Part shown: positions 24,462-32,541 of the stretch, in pieces | Layout of the letters: the number at the start of each line of letters is the position of its first letter | Position numbering within the stretch: the stretch's first letter is position 1 | Assembly (NCBI GenBank): GCA_903929755.1 | Contig: CAIYVZ010000005.1 | Span: forward strand, 1-35,392 | DNA from: an uncultured Acidobacteriia bacterium | GTDB taxonomy: Bacteria; Acidobacteriota; Terriglobia; Bryobacterales; Bryobacteraceae | Reading direction: 5' to 3' | Length of the DNA stretch: 35,392 bases | Notes under the pieces: model-generated | Databases searched by the model: none | What the model saw: the letters and a program-made list of their open reading frames with translations, nothing else | Told to the model about the DNA's origin: nothing | Program-made: the position numbers and the translations under genes

Positions 24462-25595
24462 TCAGCTCCGGTACATCATCCTCAAGTCTGGAAGCGCGGC
24501 CCCCTCCAGGGCGGAAGCCAGGTTCAGGAGATCTGTCCGCGGCAAGACCGGGGTGGGTGCGGGGCGTCCAAAGAAGTGGCCCTGCATGTACTGAACTCCG
24601 AGTAGCCACAAGTTTTCGACGGTCCGCGCACTCTCTACGTTCTTCGCGATTACGATGGAGCCACAGCGATCGGCGGCTTCGACGATCCGGCGGATGGCGG
24701 ACGCGCAGAGGGGGGATTCGATGTCGTGCAGCAAAGCTGACGAGAGTTTGACATACTCCGGACGCAGATACTGGAGCAGCTCCAGGCCCCCCTTGGCGAC
24801 GCCAAGGTCATCCAGGGAAAGGCAGCAACCTTGTTCGCGGAGCGTGTCGGCGATGAAACGAAGGTGGTTATGTTCGTTTTCCGTAGCGTTCACAACTTCA
24901 AAAATCACCTTAGCGGGGGCAATTCCTGAGCGTTTGAGGACGGAGAACGTATCAGCGAGACACAAGGCCGGTTCGTAGATGGTGTGTGGCAGGAAGTTGA
25001 TAAAAAAAGCTCCCGGGCCGCCCCTGTCAGCGATCGCCTGAAGGGCTAATTGCCGAAGTCTGTTGTCCACCTCGCGCTCGCTTTGGCGCAGCCAGGCCGC
25101 GTCGAATATCTCGGCGGCAGAATGTTGGCGATAGTTTTGTCGTGTGCCGGAATGAACCCGAGCCAGGCATTCGTGAGCGACTGGCCGGTTGTTCGACGTG
25201 TCGATAACCGGCTGAAACCAGATGGTGAACGCGGGTCCCCGGGACTCAGGATCGCCGGAGCCGAAGGGGTTGGCCATGGCTTGTTCCAGCCAGCCGGTTT
25301 CCTGGATTCTCCACCAGTCGTCAAGAGTATGTTGCTCAGGAAAGCCGGAAGTTCCAATGGAGGCGACTGTGACCCCGCTCTGCTCTGATTCATCTAAAAT
25401 ATAGCGTAAAAGCTCCACGGCGCACGCCGGATCTCTGGGGCCAACCAGGGCGAGCATGGTCCCGCGCCGCTCAAAAAGCAGATTGTGCTGGGCGAGGGTA
25501 CCGGCCAAAAAGTCTCTCAGTTCCTGAGTCGCCGGGATCAGGCACAGACTGGCCCCCGCCAGGTTGTTATCGCCGCTGCAGGAGATGCATGACAT
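24462..25595 (-). CDS. EAL-domain protein with N-terminal Cys motif, divergent active site
   Basis: EAL domains hydrolyse or bind cyclic-di-GMP. The N-terminus MSCISCSGD has a CxxC pair, and a small alpha/beta region (about 20-100) precedes the EAL domain (about 125-350). Landmarks are FQPVID, E142-CL-A-R in place of EALLR, N200 in FINFLP, E233, D262-D263 in LDDLG, K283, and Q338 in MQGHFFGRP. The usual AEGVE is AKNVE here, so a conserved acidic residue is Lys318, and activity is doubtful. ATG 25595 gives 377 residues. The frame is open to 25805 with more Cys (CLRCVCKN), but that would overlap the folP start. Probably a c-di-GMP sensor or weak enzyme. Confidence 0.8.
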   Translation of the reverse strand: MSCISCSGDNNLAGASLCLIPATQELRDFLAGTLAQHNLLFERRGTMLALVGPRDPACAVELLRYILDESEQSGVTVASIGTSGFPEQHTLDDWWRIQETGWLEQAMANPFGSGDPESRGPAFTIWFQPVIDTSNNRPVAHECLARVHSGTRQNYRQHSAAEIFDAAWLRQSEREVDNRLRQLALQAIADRGGPGAFFINFLPHTIYEPALCLADTFSVLKRSGIAPAKVIFEVVNATENEHNHLRFIADTLREQGCCLSLDDLGVAKGGLELLQYLRPEYVKLSSALLHDIESPLCASAIRRIVEAADRCGSIVIAKNVESARTVENLWLLGVQYMQGHFFGRPAPTPVLPRTDLLNLASALEGAALPDLRMMYRS

Positions 25596-25793
25596 GTTCT
25601 TACATACACATCGGAGGCAACGGGAGATTTCTTTAGCCCTTCTTTGTACCAATTTGGAAAACGATTCGAAACGAAACAAATCGCCCTGTGAGAGCGGTTC
25701 CAGGGTGACGCCGGGTAAGGGTCTGCGCGAAAATTTCTCCTCAAAAAACTTAATCTTTGTATTTTCAGGCCTTCGGCGTGGGAAACTGGTAGT

Positions 25794-28013
25794 TTGGCAA
25801 TTCACCGTAAGATCCGCTACTGGAAGCTGCGCAGTACTGAACTGCAGCTGGGCGACAAGACGATCCTGATGGGCGTCCTGAACGTAACACCGGACTCATT
25901 CTCCGATGGGGGCCAGTTTCTGGACCCCGAACGGGCGTATGCCCGGGCGTTGCAGATGGAGGAAGAAGGCGCCGACATCATAGATATTGGTGCGGAATCG
26001 ACACGTCCCGACGCCCGGCGCATCTCTGTCGACGAGGAATGGCAACGGCTGGTGCCGGTGCTGAAGAAGCTGCGCAACAAGCTGGGAATCCCGCTGTCGA
26101 TCGATACCTACAAGAGTGAGATCGCTGAACGTGCGTTCGAATACGGCGTGGAGATCGTCAACGATCCGAGCGGTCTGACTTTCGATCCGAACGTGGCCAA
26201 AGTGGCCGCGGCGGGCGATGCAGGCTTAATTCTCAACCACATGCGGGGAACTCCGGAGACCTGGAGCAGGCTGGGCCCGATTCCCGATGTGGCCGGGACA
26301 GTAGTCCGCGAGCTGGAAGCGATGGCGAGCCGGGCCCGGATGGCGGGCGTGGAAAAGAATCGGATTGCACTCGATCCGGGGCTTGGCTTCGGCAAGCGTA
26401 AAGAACAGAATTCAGAGATCATCGCCCAACTGGGGCGGCTGGTGGCTCTCGATTATCCGGTGATGGTGGGGGCGTCTCGTAAGGCGTTCCTGCTGGCGCT
26501 GGCGGAGCAGGAACTGGGCTATGCAACAGCTGCCGCCGTTGCTGTAGCGATCGTGAACGGCGCGGATATTATTCGTGTTCACGACGTGAAGGCAATGAAG
26601 GCCGTGGCGATGGTGGCGGATGAAATCGCACGTACAGACGCGGCGGTTTCGCGCCTGGCGGAAGACGAAGCCGATAAGCTTGCGACCTCGAAGCTGAAAA
26701 AAGCGGGGAAGAAGGACTGGCTGGAACCGGAACGGCGTGCGCCGATGAGAGCGCCCCTGATGAAAGTGGAGTCGCCGGTTGTCGTGGCCCAGATTGCGGA
26801 TAAGCCGGCTGTTGACTCGGGTGCCGAGGGCGAAGTTTCGCCGATGGCAGCCTCTGCTGACGGCTCCACGGCCATTTCTGGTGATTCTGGAGAGTCGAGC
26901 GAGATCCTGACGGAAGGCGCAGTACAGGCCGAAGGCACGCAGGAAAATGCAGGCGCGGTGGACGGCGAAGGGAAGCCGGTGGCCAGCACTCCGGTTGGTG
27001 GGGATCGTCCGGTCCCGAAAATTTACCCCAGGCCGGAAGCGAATAAGCCGCTCTACACGAAACCGCAGGGGGACCGCCCGCCTTATGGTGGAGACCGTCC
27101 GCGCTTTGGTGGAGGGGACAGGCCGCAGGGAGATCGTCCGCAGGGAGACCGTCCGCGCTTTGGTGGAGGAGATCGTCCGCAGGGAGATCGTCCGCAGGGA
27201 GATCGTCCTTCGTATGGTGGGGGCAGGCCGAGTTTTGGCGGTGGTCGTCCGCAAGGGGATCGTCCGGCCTATGGTGGCGGCAGACCGAGTTTCGGCGCCG
27301 GTCGTCCACAGGGGGATCGGCCACAGGGGGATCGGCCACAGGGTGACAGACCTCGTTATGACCGTCCGCAGGGAGATCGTCCACAGGGAGATCGTCCGGC
27401 GTATGGTGGGGGCAGACCGAGTTTCGGTGGCGGGCGTCCGCAGGGGGACCGTCCGCAGGGTGACAGACCTCGTTATGACCGTCCGCAGGGAGATCGTCCG
27501 CAGGGTGATCGTCCAGCCTACGGTGGTGACAGGCCGCGCTTTGGTGGTGGAGACCGTCCGCAGGGTGATCGACCGTCTTATGGTGGAGATCGTCCGCGTT
27601 TTGGTGGCGGCGACCGTCCATCCTATGGTGGGGGCAGGCCGAGTTTCGGTGCTGGCCGTCCGCAAGGAGACCGTCCGCAGGGTGACAGGCCGCAGGGAGA
27701 CCGTCCACAGGGAGACCGTCCGTCCTATGGCGGCGACCGCCCTCGTTTTGGTGGGGGTGATCGCCCCGGCTTCAAGCCTGGTGGGTTTAAGCCTGGTGGC
27801 TATCAGGGGAATCGTCCGGATGGTCCGCCGCGCTTTGGTGGCGGTGACAGACCTGGTGGTGACCGACCTGGTGGTGACCGACCGAGTGGTGGAGAATGGA
27901 AGGATCGGGGCCCTCGTCCCGGTGGTGATTCCCGCCCCGGTGGCCGTCCGTCGTTCGGTGGCGGTGGTGGCCAGGGACGTCCGCCAAACCGGCCGTTCCG
28001 CAAGCGCCCGTAA
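25794..28013 (+). CDS. folP: Dihydropteroate synthase with long repetitive G/R/P/D tail
   Basis: Dihydropteroate synthase joins p-aminobenzoate to the pterin pyrophosphate in folate synthesis. Residues 1-281 contain all family signatures: MGVLNVTPDSFSDGG (26-40), GAESTRP (66-72), SIDTYK, VNDPSG, NHMRGTPETW, LDPGLGFGK, GASRKAF and RVHDV. Normal enzymes end near residue 280. This one continues in the same frame through a charged, acidic linker (282-400) and a tail of about 340 residues (401-739). The tail is built from QGDRP (20 copies) alternating with SYGGGRPSFGGGRP- and RFGGGDRP-like units, and ends basic (NRPFRKRP). The start is TTG 25794, since ATG 25868 would cut into the fold. The tail is probably disordered and may bind nucleic acid. 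Confidence 0.88.
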   Translation: MAIHRKIRYWKLRSTELQLGDKTILMGVLNVTPDSFSDGGQFLDPERAYARALQMEEEGADIIDIGAESTRPDARRISVDEEWQRLVPVLKKLRNKLGIPLSIDTYKSEIAERAFEYGVEIVNDPSGLTFDPNVAKVAAAGDAGLILNHMRGTPETWSRLGPIPDVAGTVVRELEAMASRARMAGVEKNRIALDPGLGFGKRKEQNSEIIAQLGRLVALDYPVMVGASRKAFLLALAEQELGYATAAAVAVAIVNGADIIRVHDVKAMKAVAMVADEIARTDAAVSRLAEDEADKLATSKLKKAGKKDWLEPERRAPMRAPLMKVESPVVVAQIADKPAVDSGAEGEVSPMAASADGSTAISGDSGESSEILTEGAVQAEGTQENAGAVDGEGKPVASTPVGGDRPVPKIYPRPEANKPLYTKPQGDRPPYGGDRPRFGGGDRPQGDRPQGDRPRFGGGDRPQGDRPQGDRPSYGGGRPSFGGGRPQGDRPAYGGGRPSFGAGRPQGDRPQGDRPQGDRPRYDRPQGDRPQGDRPAYGGGRPSFGGGRPQGDRPQGDRPRYDRPQGDRPQGDRPAYGGDRPRFGGGDRPQGDRPSYGGDRPRFGGGDRPSYGGGRPSFGAGRPQGDRPQGDRPQGDRPQGDRPSYGGDRPRFGGGDRPGFKPGGFKPGGYQGNRPDGPPRFGGGDRPGGDRPGGDRPSGGEWKDRGPRPGGDSRPGGRPSFGGGGGQGRPPNRPFRKRP
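27061..27760 (+). repeat. In-frame minisatellite coding QGDRP/GGGRP units
   Basis: Tandem and interspersed 15-nt units of the type CAGGGAGATCGTCCG encode QGDRP, mixed with units coding Y/F-GGG-RP. Unit number varies between clusters (1-4 in a row) and third codon positions differ between copies. The array is therefore old enough to have diverged but still likely to change length by recombination. Confidence 0.85.
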
Positions 28014-28022: not shown

Positions 28023-28045
28023 GGTGCCGCTTTTCAGTTAAAGCA

Positions 28046-28086
28046 GGGCCCTTAGCTCAATGGTTAGAGCAGCGGACTCATAATCC
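28046..28086 (+). pseudogene. 5' half of a CAT-anticodon tRNA (Met or Ile2)
   Basis: The segment reads as acceptor strand GGGCCCT, TA, D-arm GCTC-AATGGTTA-GAGC, anticodon stem GCGGA and loop CTCATAA with anticodon CAT, then TCC. After that the sequence no longer pairs. The expected 3' anticodon arm, variable loop, GGTTC-type T-arm and AGGGCCC acceptor strand are absent here, and I did not see them elsewhere in the window. The break lies at the anticodon stem-loop, a classic crossover site for integrases, so this looks like an insertion or excision scar. A tRNA with an intron is less likely. Confidence 0.75.
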
Positions 28087-28561
28087 TTATTAGCGGGTAG
28101 CTGCTATTGAACTACGCTGGACCTTCTCCCGTGTGTATCGGTTGATATTGGCTTATATGTCTTTGTTTCTAAAAGACATATAAGCCAATTGTCATTTGTC
28201 AGCGCGTTCGATGAAGCGCTCGCGCGATCTCAATCGGTACAAGCCTATCTATGCGAGGGGTGGGCATAGTATTGGGCATAGGCGCTGGTTGAACGTCATT
28301 GCGATGTCCTGATCGGAAAGTCCAACTCTGCCGCCATGGATTCCAGTTCCGGGCACCACTCGACCGGCGTTGCAGATGTTGGCGACCACGGGAGCCTCCG
28401 TGACCACGATTGGTCAATGAGCGGGAGTACAGACACCGTTACTCATTTGGAAGCCACCCGGATCATGGGACATTTCGGAAGCGTAACGGCATCCCTGCCC
28501 ACGTCGCGGTGCAGTTCGAGCACCATTGCGCGAGTGGTGATCGGCATGCGTTGTAAATGGC
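28087..28561. other. Gene-free stretch beside the broken tRNA
   Basis: Apart from the hairpin at 28147-28189 I find no convincing gene in these 475 bases. Short open frames on both strands (for example minus 28199-28417) match no family I recognise. The left part is more AT-rich than its surroundings, which fits foreign DNA or the decayed end of an integrated element. Confidence 0.5.
28147..28189. repeat. 18-bp perfect hairpin, 7-nt loop
   Basis: ATTGGCTTATATGTCTTT (28147-28164) and its exact complement (28172-28189) flank a GTTTCTA loop. The arms are AT-rich and no U-run follows, so a simple terminator is not the best reading. It lies 60 bp after the tRNA break, where integrase arm sites or attachment-site structure might be expected. 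Confidence 0.7.
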
Positions 28562-30163: not shown

Positions 30164-31735
30164 CTACTTAAACGCTTTGATCAGCGCTTCGAACTGCGCG
30201 TGCGGCGATTGGGCGTGGGGAGTTACCGGCGGCACCTCGCGCTCAATGTTCAGGAGTTCGTAGACGGCCATTTGCGCCGCGCGGACCGAGTATTCAACGG
30301 TGAAGACGACGTCTTCCGGGATCTCGACGAACTGACTGATGAAGGCGAGGTTTTTCGAAGCGGCCGGGACGGGCAGGGGGCGATCTCCAGGCAGGCGCGG
30401 CATGAACATGCTGGTGATGTAGGGCATGCGGCAGGGGATGCAGTTGGCTCTGGCGAAGGTCTCGAGATCGAAGCGGAGGTGGCCACAGAGTTCCTGGAGG
30501 ATCTCCGCTCCGTTGCAGGCTGCCATTGGTTTCGGAACGAAGTCGCCGACGCGGTCCGGGAAGAGTGCGTAGCCCCAGAAGACATGCACCCCGGCGGGTT
30601 GGTTTACGAAGTGGGGCTGGAAGGCGAGCACGATGGACAGGAGCCAGTTGGAGTCCTGAAACGTGACCAGCCCCCCCGTGCCAGGCTCATTGCCGCTAAA
30701 GCTGGTCATCTGATCAAAAAACGCGGGGTTCTGCAGGGTGACCGTAAAGGACTCCCAGACCGATTGCGCGATCAGGCTGTTAAAGGCGGCCGGGTTTCCA
30801 AAATCGGAGCGGCCCGCAGCAAGTTTTTCCCAGAGTGTCCAACCTCCGCTGTCGGCCTTGGTTAGCTGGGCCGGGGCTGTTGTCATGCTGCCCAGGCTGG
30901 AGGCGTCTGTCATGGAGCCGTTCTGGAAGAAGACGAGGTCGCCTTCGTTCACGGCTATGGTGTCGGCGATCCCGGAGACGGAACAGTGCAGTGCGGTTAC
31001 AGTGAACCGGCCGTCCTGCTGCGTGTGATCCATATCGGTAACCGTACGGCCGGTAAGGAAGTGGACGCCCTGGTGGGCGAGCCAGGCTTGCAGCGGCAAC
31101 ACAAGCGAATCGTACTGGTTATAGACGGTTCGCTTCACGCCGGCCAGGGTTTCAATGCGGGAGAACTCCAGCAGAAAGCGTTGCAGATAGCGCTTAAACT
31201 CGATGGCGCTGTGCCAGGGCTGGAAGGCAAACGTAGTGGACCACATGTACCAGAAGGGGGTCCCAAAGAAACTGGGGGACAGCCAGTCGGTGATGCGGCT
31301 TGCGGCGAGGGCCTCTTCTGAGGTGCGGCTGAGTGTCAGGAGTTCGAGGCGGTCCCGCATGGAGAAGCCCATGGAGGTGACGGGGACTTTCGCGCGGCGG
31401 CAATCGACCAGGCGTGCCCTTGAGTTCGACTTGTGGAGTTGGTTGAATTCGAGAGTTTCATCGAGAACCGATTTGCCGGGATGCTGTAGTGAAGGGATTG
31501 ATTTGTAGAGATCCCACGTGCACTCGTAGTTATCGGTGGTGAGCATACGTCCGCCGCGCATTGAGTAGCCGCGGACGGGGTCTCCATCGCCATCAAGGGC
31601 ACCGCCGAGGATGGAGGCACTTTCGAGGATAGAGATATTGCCACCGGGGACGTTGCCGTCGCGGATCATGAACGCGGCAGCCGCGAGAGAGCCGATGCCG
31701 CCCCCGATAAGCCAGGCTTTGGATTTTGTGGGCAT
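30164..31735 (-). CDS. ohyA: Oleate hydratase
   Basis: Oleate hydratases are FAD proteins that add water to the cis-9 double bond of fatty acids to give 10-hydroxy acids. The 523-residue protein opens with the FAD site WLIGGGIGSLAAAAFMIRDG. It then has RGGRM (60-64), YECTWDLYKSIPSL, the family hallmarks WSTTFAFQPWHSA and NQYDSLVLPL, and ends with MPYITSMFMPR, FISQFVE and FTVEYSVR. Where many homologues have Glu after RGGR, this protein has Met64. I recall Met there also in a monomeric Rhodococcus-type subgroup. ATG 31735 matches the usual start. In-frame starts at 31762 and 31900 (GTG) add unlike residues and approach the neighbouring pseudogene. Confidence 0.9.
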   Translation of the reverse strand: MPTKSKAWLIGGGIGSLAAAAFMIRDGNVPGGNISILESASILGGALDGDGDPVRGYSMRGGRMLTTDNYECTWDLYKSIPSLQHPGKSVLDETLEFNQLHKSNSRARLVDCRRAKVPVTSMGFSMRDRLELLTLSRTSEEALAASRITDWLSPSFFGTPFWYMWSTTFAFQPWHSAIEFKRYLQRFLLEFSRIETLAGVKRTVYNQYDSLVLPLQAWLAHQGVHFLTGRTVTDMDHTQQDGRFTVTALHCSVSGIADTIAVNEGDLVFFQNGSMTDASSLGSMTTAPAQLTKADSGGWTLWEKLAAGRSDFGNPAAFNSLIAQSVWESFTVTLQNPAFFDQMTSFSGNEPGTGGLVTFQDSNWLLSIVLAFQPHFVNQPAGVHVFWGYALFPDRVGDFVPKPMAACNGAEILQELCGHLRFDLETFARANCIPCRMPYITSMFMPRLPGDRPLPVPAASKNLAFISQFVEIPEDVVFTVEYSVRAAQMAVYELLNIEREVPPVTPHAQSPHAQFEALIKAFK

Positions 31736-31855
31736 ACCCGCGCGTGTACGAAGACTCTGCATGGCGGGCAAGGTTGCAGGTTCAGGGCCACCACGTTGCA
31801 GGGTCGATATTGGAACGAACTCAGGTGACAGCTTCGAGTCAGGAAACCCAGGACG

Positions 31856-32541
31856 ATGCGTCACGATCGATACGGAGAATAAGGTCCTGCGGATCTCCAC
31901 GGACGGACAGGTCTGCGAGCATCCGCTCTACAACAATGAAGCCTTTGAAGCGGTAAGCCGCGAGTAGGTCCGGATTCGGTGGTCTCTTCGCTGCTATCAC
32001 ACCTTGTACGTGGCTGGGATTGCCGAGCCTGCAGTTACCGGAAGACCTCATACGCATTCAGGAAGTCACTGTACGCATTCAGCCGGATCTCATCATCGAG
32101 ACAGGAATCTGCGATGGCGGTTCCCTGCTTTTTTACGGTTCGCTGTGCGAAACACTGCGAAAAGGGCGCGTATTGGGAATCGACATCGAAATCCGTCCCG
32201 CTGGGCGGGCGGCCGTTCACTCGAGGATGCATCCGGGAGAAATAGTAATGATTATGCTGGAATCCCACCATCCCCGGCAGCACGTGGCTGGGGAACTGGA
32301 AGCGTACGCACAGCTCGTAAACGCAGGGTCGTGCATTGTCGCGTCTGACGGCATGAGGGACCTCTGTGACGTGCCCGGAGGCAAACCGGAATGGGTGACC
32401 GGCAACCCCGCAAGGGCCGCCATTGAATTTGCCGGGCGCCACCCTGAATTTGAACTGCGGCAACCGACATGGCAGCCAAACGCGAGCCGCCTTGAGAAGA
32501 ACGTGACTTATTGGCGAGACGCCTGGCTTTGGCGGAAATAG
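31856..32541 (+). pseudogene. Dead cephalosporin-hydroxylase/CmcI-like methyltransferase gene
   Basis: Pieces of one protein are spread over frames. The first frame reads VTIDTENKVLRISTDG and PLYNNEAFEAVSRE, then TAG (31965-31967) where the family has Trp, then VRIRWSLRCYHTLY in the same frame. A shift leads to TWLGLPSLQLPEDLIRIQ and IETGICDGGSLLFYGSL (the SAM-binding region), then GIDIEIRPAGRAAVHS. The family next has roughly 25-35 residues that are missing here, before PGEIVMIMLESHHPRQHV and the normal end. Three lesions (nonsense, frameshift, internal deletion) make function very unlikely. The TAG is one base from TGG. Confidence 0.75.

Follow-up and report, generated by a model that had tools for sequence, protein, structure and literature searches.

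A tailed dihydropteroate synthase of an acidobacterium and the possible second role of its enzyme type

The window, i.e. the whole stretch of 35,392 nucleotides analysed here, is one complete contig (C5) of a 6.86 Mb genome in 212 contigs (completeness 97.9%). Its folP gene codes for a dihydropteroate synthase (DHPS) with a long, repeat-containing C-terminal arm. Sequence comparison with relatives leads us to propose, with confidence that is evenly balanced, that DHPSs of this type (type A) do two jobs, folate synthesis and a second role without catalysis, the latter probably served by the arm. DHPS is the target of sulfonamides and a textbook single-function enzyme.

The gene is a single frame of 739 codons without internal stop (25794-28013, plus strand), read from TTG. 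The ATG with which folP starts in relatives corresponds to ATT at 25800, and the start would be either the TTG at 25794 or this ATT. As originally predicted, residues 1-281 form a complete folate enzyme: TIGR01496 matches residues 25-276 with 281.3 bits (cut-off 162.6), Pfam Pterin_bind matches residues 26-263, and none of 15 checked catalytic sites is changed. These are positions of the pterin, pABA and phosphate sites as they stand in DHPS structures; the list, like both proximal-motif patterns used below, was picked after the alignments had been seen. Besides a distant match in a frame of 1188 codons, this is the only DHPS found in its genome, and DHPS activity is expected for that reason. 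By every sequence feature tested, the window protein is a DHPS. It scores 116.5-183.6 bits with the exception models for sulfonamide-resistant Sul1-Sul4 (cut-offs 475-600) and is thus not a member of these, and Pfam recognises no second folded domain in it. Compared with FolP (TIGR01496; PDB 1tws, 2dqw, 1aj0), which it resembles over the matched region and in all 15 sites, it adds the N-terminal segment with W10, residues W157, R180 and R202, and a C-terminal extension of 458 aa. HPPK-DHPS/Fol1 proteins (PDB 7mpy, 6jwq, 2bmb) likewise hold a DHPS within a longer polypeptide, but there the partners are folded folate enzymes.

The predicted in-frame acidic linker and tail of about 340 residues with 20 QGDRP units are confirmed (Table 1). 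The tail (339 aa) consists of G 28%, P 18%, R 18%, D 11% and Q 7%, with 14 F, 13 Y and 1 W. In the whole protein, QGDRP occurs 20 times, GDRP 33 times, GGGRP 6 times, and the aromatic Gly-rich units RFGGGDRP and SYGGGRP, also foreseen, 6 times and 2 times, respectively. Thirty-one in-frame 15-mers of the tail lie within five mismatches of CAGGGAGATCGTCCG, none in the other two phases, and codon differences from this unit are 48 synonymous to 15 non-synonymous, random single changes giving 11:34. Because of this phase restriction and codon bias, we regard the repeats as protein-level repeats. The tail is probably unstructured; its composition suggests disorder and multivalent binding.

Table 1. 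Position of folP features and of the divergent upstream gene in the window
Feature	Position	Strand	Basis
Divergent EAL-domain gene	24462..25805	-	Pfam; related frame at the same place in four other genomes of the genus
DHPS (folP, type A) domain, residues 1-281	25794..26636	+	TIGR01496, Pfam; 15/15 checked catalytic-site residues present
N-terminal type A segment, residues ~5-20, with R5 and W10	within 25794..26636	+	Part of DHPS domain
Acidic, Ala-rich linker, residues 282-400, net charge -9	26637..26993	+	Composition
MRAPL (residues 318-322), the proximal short motif corresponding to VRPPV/MRPPL of other tails	26745..26759	+	Motif comparison
GDRP/QGDRP/GGGRP repeat tail with F/Y, residues 401-739, net charge +28	26994..28010	+	Composition, repeat count
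Conserved C-terminal end PFRKRP	27993..28010	+	Genus comparison

Tails of the same kind had been expected on folP of relatives, and an extension is indeed present in all 18 genus genomes with a folP match (19 were searched), so that the case of a tail missing from relatives through assembly error does not arise. Repeats do break assemblies, and four genus copies reach contig ends (G003, G010, G016 and G017, the last showing the linker only). It might therefore be argued that mis-assembly or a frameshift fuses folP to an unrelated repeat, or that the product ends near residue 281. Against this, 14 of the 18 copies run in an unbroken frame to their stop and extend 213-509 aa past the domain, and the FRKRP ends of three broken copies were located on separate contigs, with one and the same tRNA-Met sequence behind each. 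We consider the chance of an artefact negligible. Thirteen of the 14 closed copies end in FRKRP (the exception, G004, in FRKD), as do 16 of the 17 ends visible in the genus, and the codons used there differ synonymously. A PFRKRP-stop pattern was found at 18 places in 41 genomes, 5 of which contain Ser; the 13 true FRKRP matches (in 13 of the 41 genomes) occur once per genome, all in genus members and at folP ends.

Just after folP, the window contains the 5' half of a tRNA-Met gene (28046-28086), broken past the anticodon arm. Seven genus genomes (G001, G003, G008, G010, G012, G015, G018) carry the whole gene at this position, and in G016 it is broken differently, as if integration or rearrangement had happened at this site. 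Although half of this gene is present, a tRNA scan of the window found none, and Rfam gave no matches in the window at gathering threshold. Downstream of the broken gene lies a hairpin of ~18 base pairs with a 7-base loop (28146-28190; fold z-score -4.65 for 28040-28240).

Among relatives, DHPS comes in two types, and many of their genomes carry two DHPS genes. Type A, to which the window protein belongs, has an N-terminal R..xW[K/R] segment that type B lacks. In a tree built by a quick method without bootstrap, with the changed type A copies G564, G546, G025y and G478z left out, one branch (SH-aLRT 100) sets type A apart from 26 type B rows and 12 DHPSs of other taxa. Its type A side comprises 61 rows and two named MAG loci, L131 ('uncultured Acidobacteria') and L132 ('Terriglobia').

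Type B rows have 0-1 of the 15 catalytic sites changed. The 61 type A rows divide into 31 intact ones (0-1 changes), 11 with 4-6 changes (G035, with 4, falls outside the intact class) and 19 strongly changed ones (7-13). A second DHPS accompanies at most one of the 31 intact copies (possibly G247, which has a second match), 4 of the 11 and 17 of the 19 (Fisher test, intact versus strongly changed, 2.9e-10, a guide only since related genomes are not independent). The strongly changed state takes five changes on the tree, and catalytic activity has presumably been lost in these copies. Those with 4-6 changes may retain it, and several of them exceed the DHPS cut-off (189-209 bits versus 162.6). 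No complete second DHPS was found in 7 of the 11 genomes with 4-6 changes or in 2 of the 19 with strongly changed type A (G504, G023); in the latter two, either folate is not made this way or activity persists. In G504 and G564 (L320, L321; completeness 98% and 96%), the only DHPS-like genes found are a type A gene, tailed and strongly changed, and a weakly matching frame of 1099-1199 codons, so that these genes leave the folate supply of both unexplained. Likewise, no type B was found beside the changed type A of G576. Neither the two types nor catalytic loss in type A, with some of the changed copies tailed, figured in the original prediction, because relatives are needed to see them.

Changed type A copies are retained under selection. 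Rough NG86 estimates of dN/dS for the domain are 0.00-0.14 in changed type A (10 pairs, 6 of them with at least 7 changes), 0.025-0.045 in intact type A (4 pairs) and 0.11-0.27 in type B (4 pairs); in the genome pair G541/G563, type A gives 0.064 versus 0.271 for intact type B. Residues peculiar to the type are also kept. W157 is found in 18/19 strongly changed and 31/31 intact type A rows, 0/26 type B rows and 0/12 other DHPSs; the corresponding figures are 19/19, 30/31, 3/26 and 4/12 for R180 and 16/19, 31/31, 0/26 and 1/12 for R202. W10 and R5 are common to intact and changed type A and rare or absent in type B. Since the protein is kept under purifying selection after its catalytic residues are gone, type A is likely to have a second, non-catalytic role.

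Could changed type A be an enzyme acting on a different pterin or other small molecule, its tail unrelated to that activity? The fold is still recognised by Pterin_bind in three strongly changed copies (95-115 bits), and K201 and D124 are kept in all 29 rows first labelled degenerate. However, substitutions at the pterin and phosphate sites (D104, N123, R229 and T70, in many cases also N30 and H263) vary from lineage to lineage, and no common set of new residues was noticed across the changed lineages, which makes this reading very unlikely. We give equally little credence to type A as a regulatory partner that would form heterodimers with type B or sense the state of the folate pathway, the tail organising a folate metabolon. 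Known DHPSs are dimers and strongly changed type A coexists with type B in 17 of 19 cases, but no second DHPS was found for 30 of the 31 intact rows, even though tails occur in 16 of these 31, and no type B was found beside two of the strongly changed copies. Moreover, no folate gene was recognised beside type A among the minority of neighbouring frames that were identified in the neighbourhoods compared.

Among known proteins, mycobacterial FolP2, a DHPS homologue that occurs alongside a further DHPS, comes closest as a precedent for the changed type A copies (PMC7809127; PDB 2vp8, 'Dihydropteroate synthase 2'). The likeness is one of features: the same combination of catalytic loss and another DHPS is found in the sequences of 17 of the 19 strongly changed rows, which stand beside intact type B. 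It is not found in the window protein, which is intact and the sole DHPS, and the 2vp8 chain has only 318 aa. A literature search yielded no description of a tailed DHPS or of an acidobacterial DHPS pseudoenzyme, a result that cannot show absence from print. To our knowledge, no such tail occurs on FolP2 either.

In the rows compared, long tails are restricted to type A. Tails of at least 120 aa are present in 16/31 intact, 2/11 intermediate and 4/19 strongly changed type A rows, and in 0/26 type B rows; type B is an ordinary, untailed DHPS, and every such tail seen sits on type A. In a sample of 150 family genomes, 136 had a DHPS match and 20 of these an R/G/P/D tail of at least 120 aa (most places with open frames under ~325 aa were counted as lacking a long tail by frame length, and G024, with a frame of 412 aa, is outside the count). 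Long tails are therefore dispensable. As they are this rare, and as 15 of the 19 strongly changed copies lack one, the second role cannot require a long tail. On a tree of 94 rows, a non-random sample, the long tail takes 7 changes, at least 4 of them forced by well-supported branches; G003, G016 and G017 were scored as long despite being cut at contig ends, whereas G476, whose 156 aa are poor in R/G/P/D, was scored as having none.

Outside the family, 80 named folP loci from many phyla contain no such tail, a single extension among them reaching 30 aa (37 aa). Among 11 phylum loci examined (30 fetched, 396 genomes searched; L034 was misread), only G247, of the same family, is tailed (79 aa). 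No other such segment was found in 435,392 bases of the own genome (~6%, window included), except in one minus-strand frame of 139 codons that we take for non-coding, and in 251,349 bases around folP of relatives further tail-like segments occur only in frames taken for non-coding. A first GDRP pattern at the DNA level was too loose (333 matches versus 368 in the control).

Short tails of other genera share a (P)(L/V/M)RPP-like proximal motif. Of 44 tails that reach 30 aa or more, 18 contain the pattern [VMLI][RK][PA]P[VLIM], 27-58 residues past the domain, with 0.5 expected in shuffles; a looser pattern, chosen after the alignments were seen, matches 35 of 60 extensions versus 12.9 expected. 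The second fixed point of the arm, the FRKRP end, is seen in the genus only.

These data bear on a rival account of the tail, namely tolerated growth at a permissive C-terminus, where slippage or unequal crossing over would lengthen GC-rich codon repeats and the tail would be at most a solubility bristle with no specific partner. Tail length, from 0 in other genera to 213-509 aa in the genus, agrees with it, as do species-specific repeat units, gain or loss at least 4-7 times, and a short C-terminus that suffices in most sampled family genomes. On the other hand, tail dN/dS is 0.09-0.33 (8 pairs; NG86 with many dS above 1, hence rough), unit differences in the window are biased towards synonymous ones (48:15), the FRKRP end is fixed in 16 of 17, the proximal motif is enriched (18/44 versus 0.5, by a pattern chosen afterwards) and tails are confined to type A (61 A and 26 B rows). 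Mere tolerance is thus possible, if rather doubtful. That the tail belongs to the second role of type A seems to us neither more nor less probable than that it does not.

What might the arm bind? Arg/Gly-rich disordered tails are features of RNA-binding proteins such as RGG proteins, DEAD-box helicases and RNase E of BR-bodies. The window tail resembles such tails in its Gly-spaced Arg and aromatics, low complexity, little hydrophobic content, richness in Arg (18%) and net positive charge (+28). It differs in its Pro (18%) and Asp (11%) content, its regular GDRP units and its position on a metabolic enzyme. The tripeptide RGG is absent from the whole window protein, and repeated RGG/RG-G accordingly so; what had been read as an RGG-type pattern is GDRP/RP-rich instead. 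The presumed likeness to DEAD-box helicase tails was not found either: among 4 of 19 DEAD-family hits viewed in the own genome, the two best-scoring DEAD-box helicases end in short basic tails of another kind. Tails of the own pseudouridine synthases (6 of 6 hits viewed) are also short and different.

Capture of the tail from another gene had been suggested, but no donor was found. Compared with its own genome, the tail matches itself, Csm2 (E 5.7e-6), which is the only other significant match, and one antisense stretch by chance (E 0.07). In the 19 genus genomes a composite tail query retrieved folP tails and three weak places (G013:C157, G015:C399, G001:C15; E 0.0015-0.0039). Short tails with the same proximal motif in other genera fit growth in place. 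The Csm2 gene (L091:1321-2187, on G000:C210; PF03750, 40.9 bits) belongs to a type III-A CRISPR locus, where its neighbours are a RAMP protein and a frame resembling Cas10 (palm domain under the cut-off at 23.8 bits). The Csm2 product has an N-terminal QGDRP/GGDRP extension of ~185 aa. Csm2 is a subunit of an RNA-guided ribonucleoprotein complex. What stands of the original interpretation is a real in-frame extension, genus-wide (18/18) and disorder-like in composition; its RGG pattern, DEAD-box likeness and captured donor found no support here.

In 11 of 30 neighbourhoods, tyrS lies upstream of type A in the same orientation and no more than 3 kb away, and in the other 19, window included, it is absent at this distance; it directly adjoins type A in G516, G489, G576 and G512 (identified by model match in G006, otherwise by similarity). 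A GNAT gene directly precedes type A in G040, G044, G047, G522 and G541 and is near it in G563 (identified by Pfam in G541 and G040). Neither gene is present in the 13.5 kb compared around the window folP. Their proximity faintly hints at a link to translation.

RNA binding or condensation by the tail is plausible from its composition. RNA, the ribosome or another polyanion would be a serious candidate partner, in our estimate a shade short of even. RNA is favoured by the make-up of the tail, by tyrS nearby in some genomes and by Csm2, which has the QGDRP repeat too, and disfavoured by the missing RGG and the different tails of own DEAD-box helicases and pseudouridine synthases. That the tail forms condensates we consider improbable.

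The proposed two jobs could be combined as follows. The window gene, as sole DHPS, would serve folate synthesis at its active site, the second role needing no catalysis. The arm would comprise an xMRPPL-like proximal motif, the acidic linker, Arg/Pro/Gly/Asp repeats with F/Y every ~10 residues and the FRKRP end, and would probably serve the second role. Since known DHPSs are dimers, each particle would bear two basic disordered arms and, being multivalent, could bind RNA, ribosomes or another polyanion via Arg and aromatics, with the two short motifs anchoring the arms at fixed points.

A wider scenario, in our view rather unlikely, is an order-level family of DHPS-derived scaffolds. An ancestral enzyme would have gained an RNA- or translation-linked role and a second DHPS would have freed the old copy to become a pseudoenzyme. 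The window genus would keep both jobs in one polypeptide, its arm grown to a condensate-forming or RNA-binding tail of 300-500 residues. If true, folate synthesis would be physically coupled to the translation machinery. Relatives provide a natural experiment in which, with another DHPS present, the old copy often loses catalytic residues yet stays under strong selection, so a second function of a core metabolic enzyme is directly testable through deletion in such relatives. Further, the long repeat tail sits on a defined enzyme and is removable, so its effect on RNA association, location and catalysis is measurable.

As for other genes, the divergent EAL-domain gene is listed with a start that overlaps folP, so that its true start probably lies further in. 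The NCBIfam model that fits it best is RimA-like, but its 101 bits are far below the cut-off of 430. An MCRA family protein is encoded at 30164-31900 of the window (minus strand; Pfam 679 bits), and L092:1436-1882 (minus strand) codes for a Lys/Ala/Pro-rich AAPKKA repeat protein, histone H1-like by eye.
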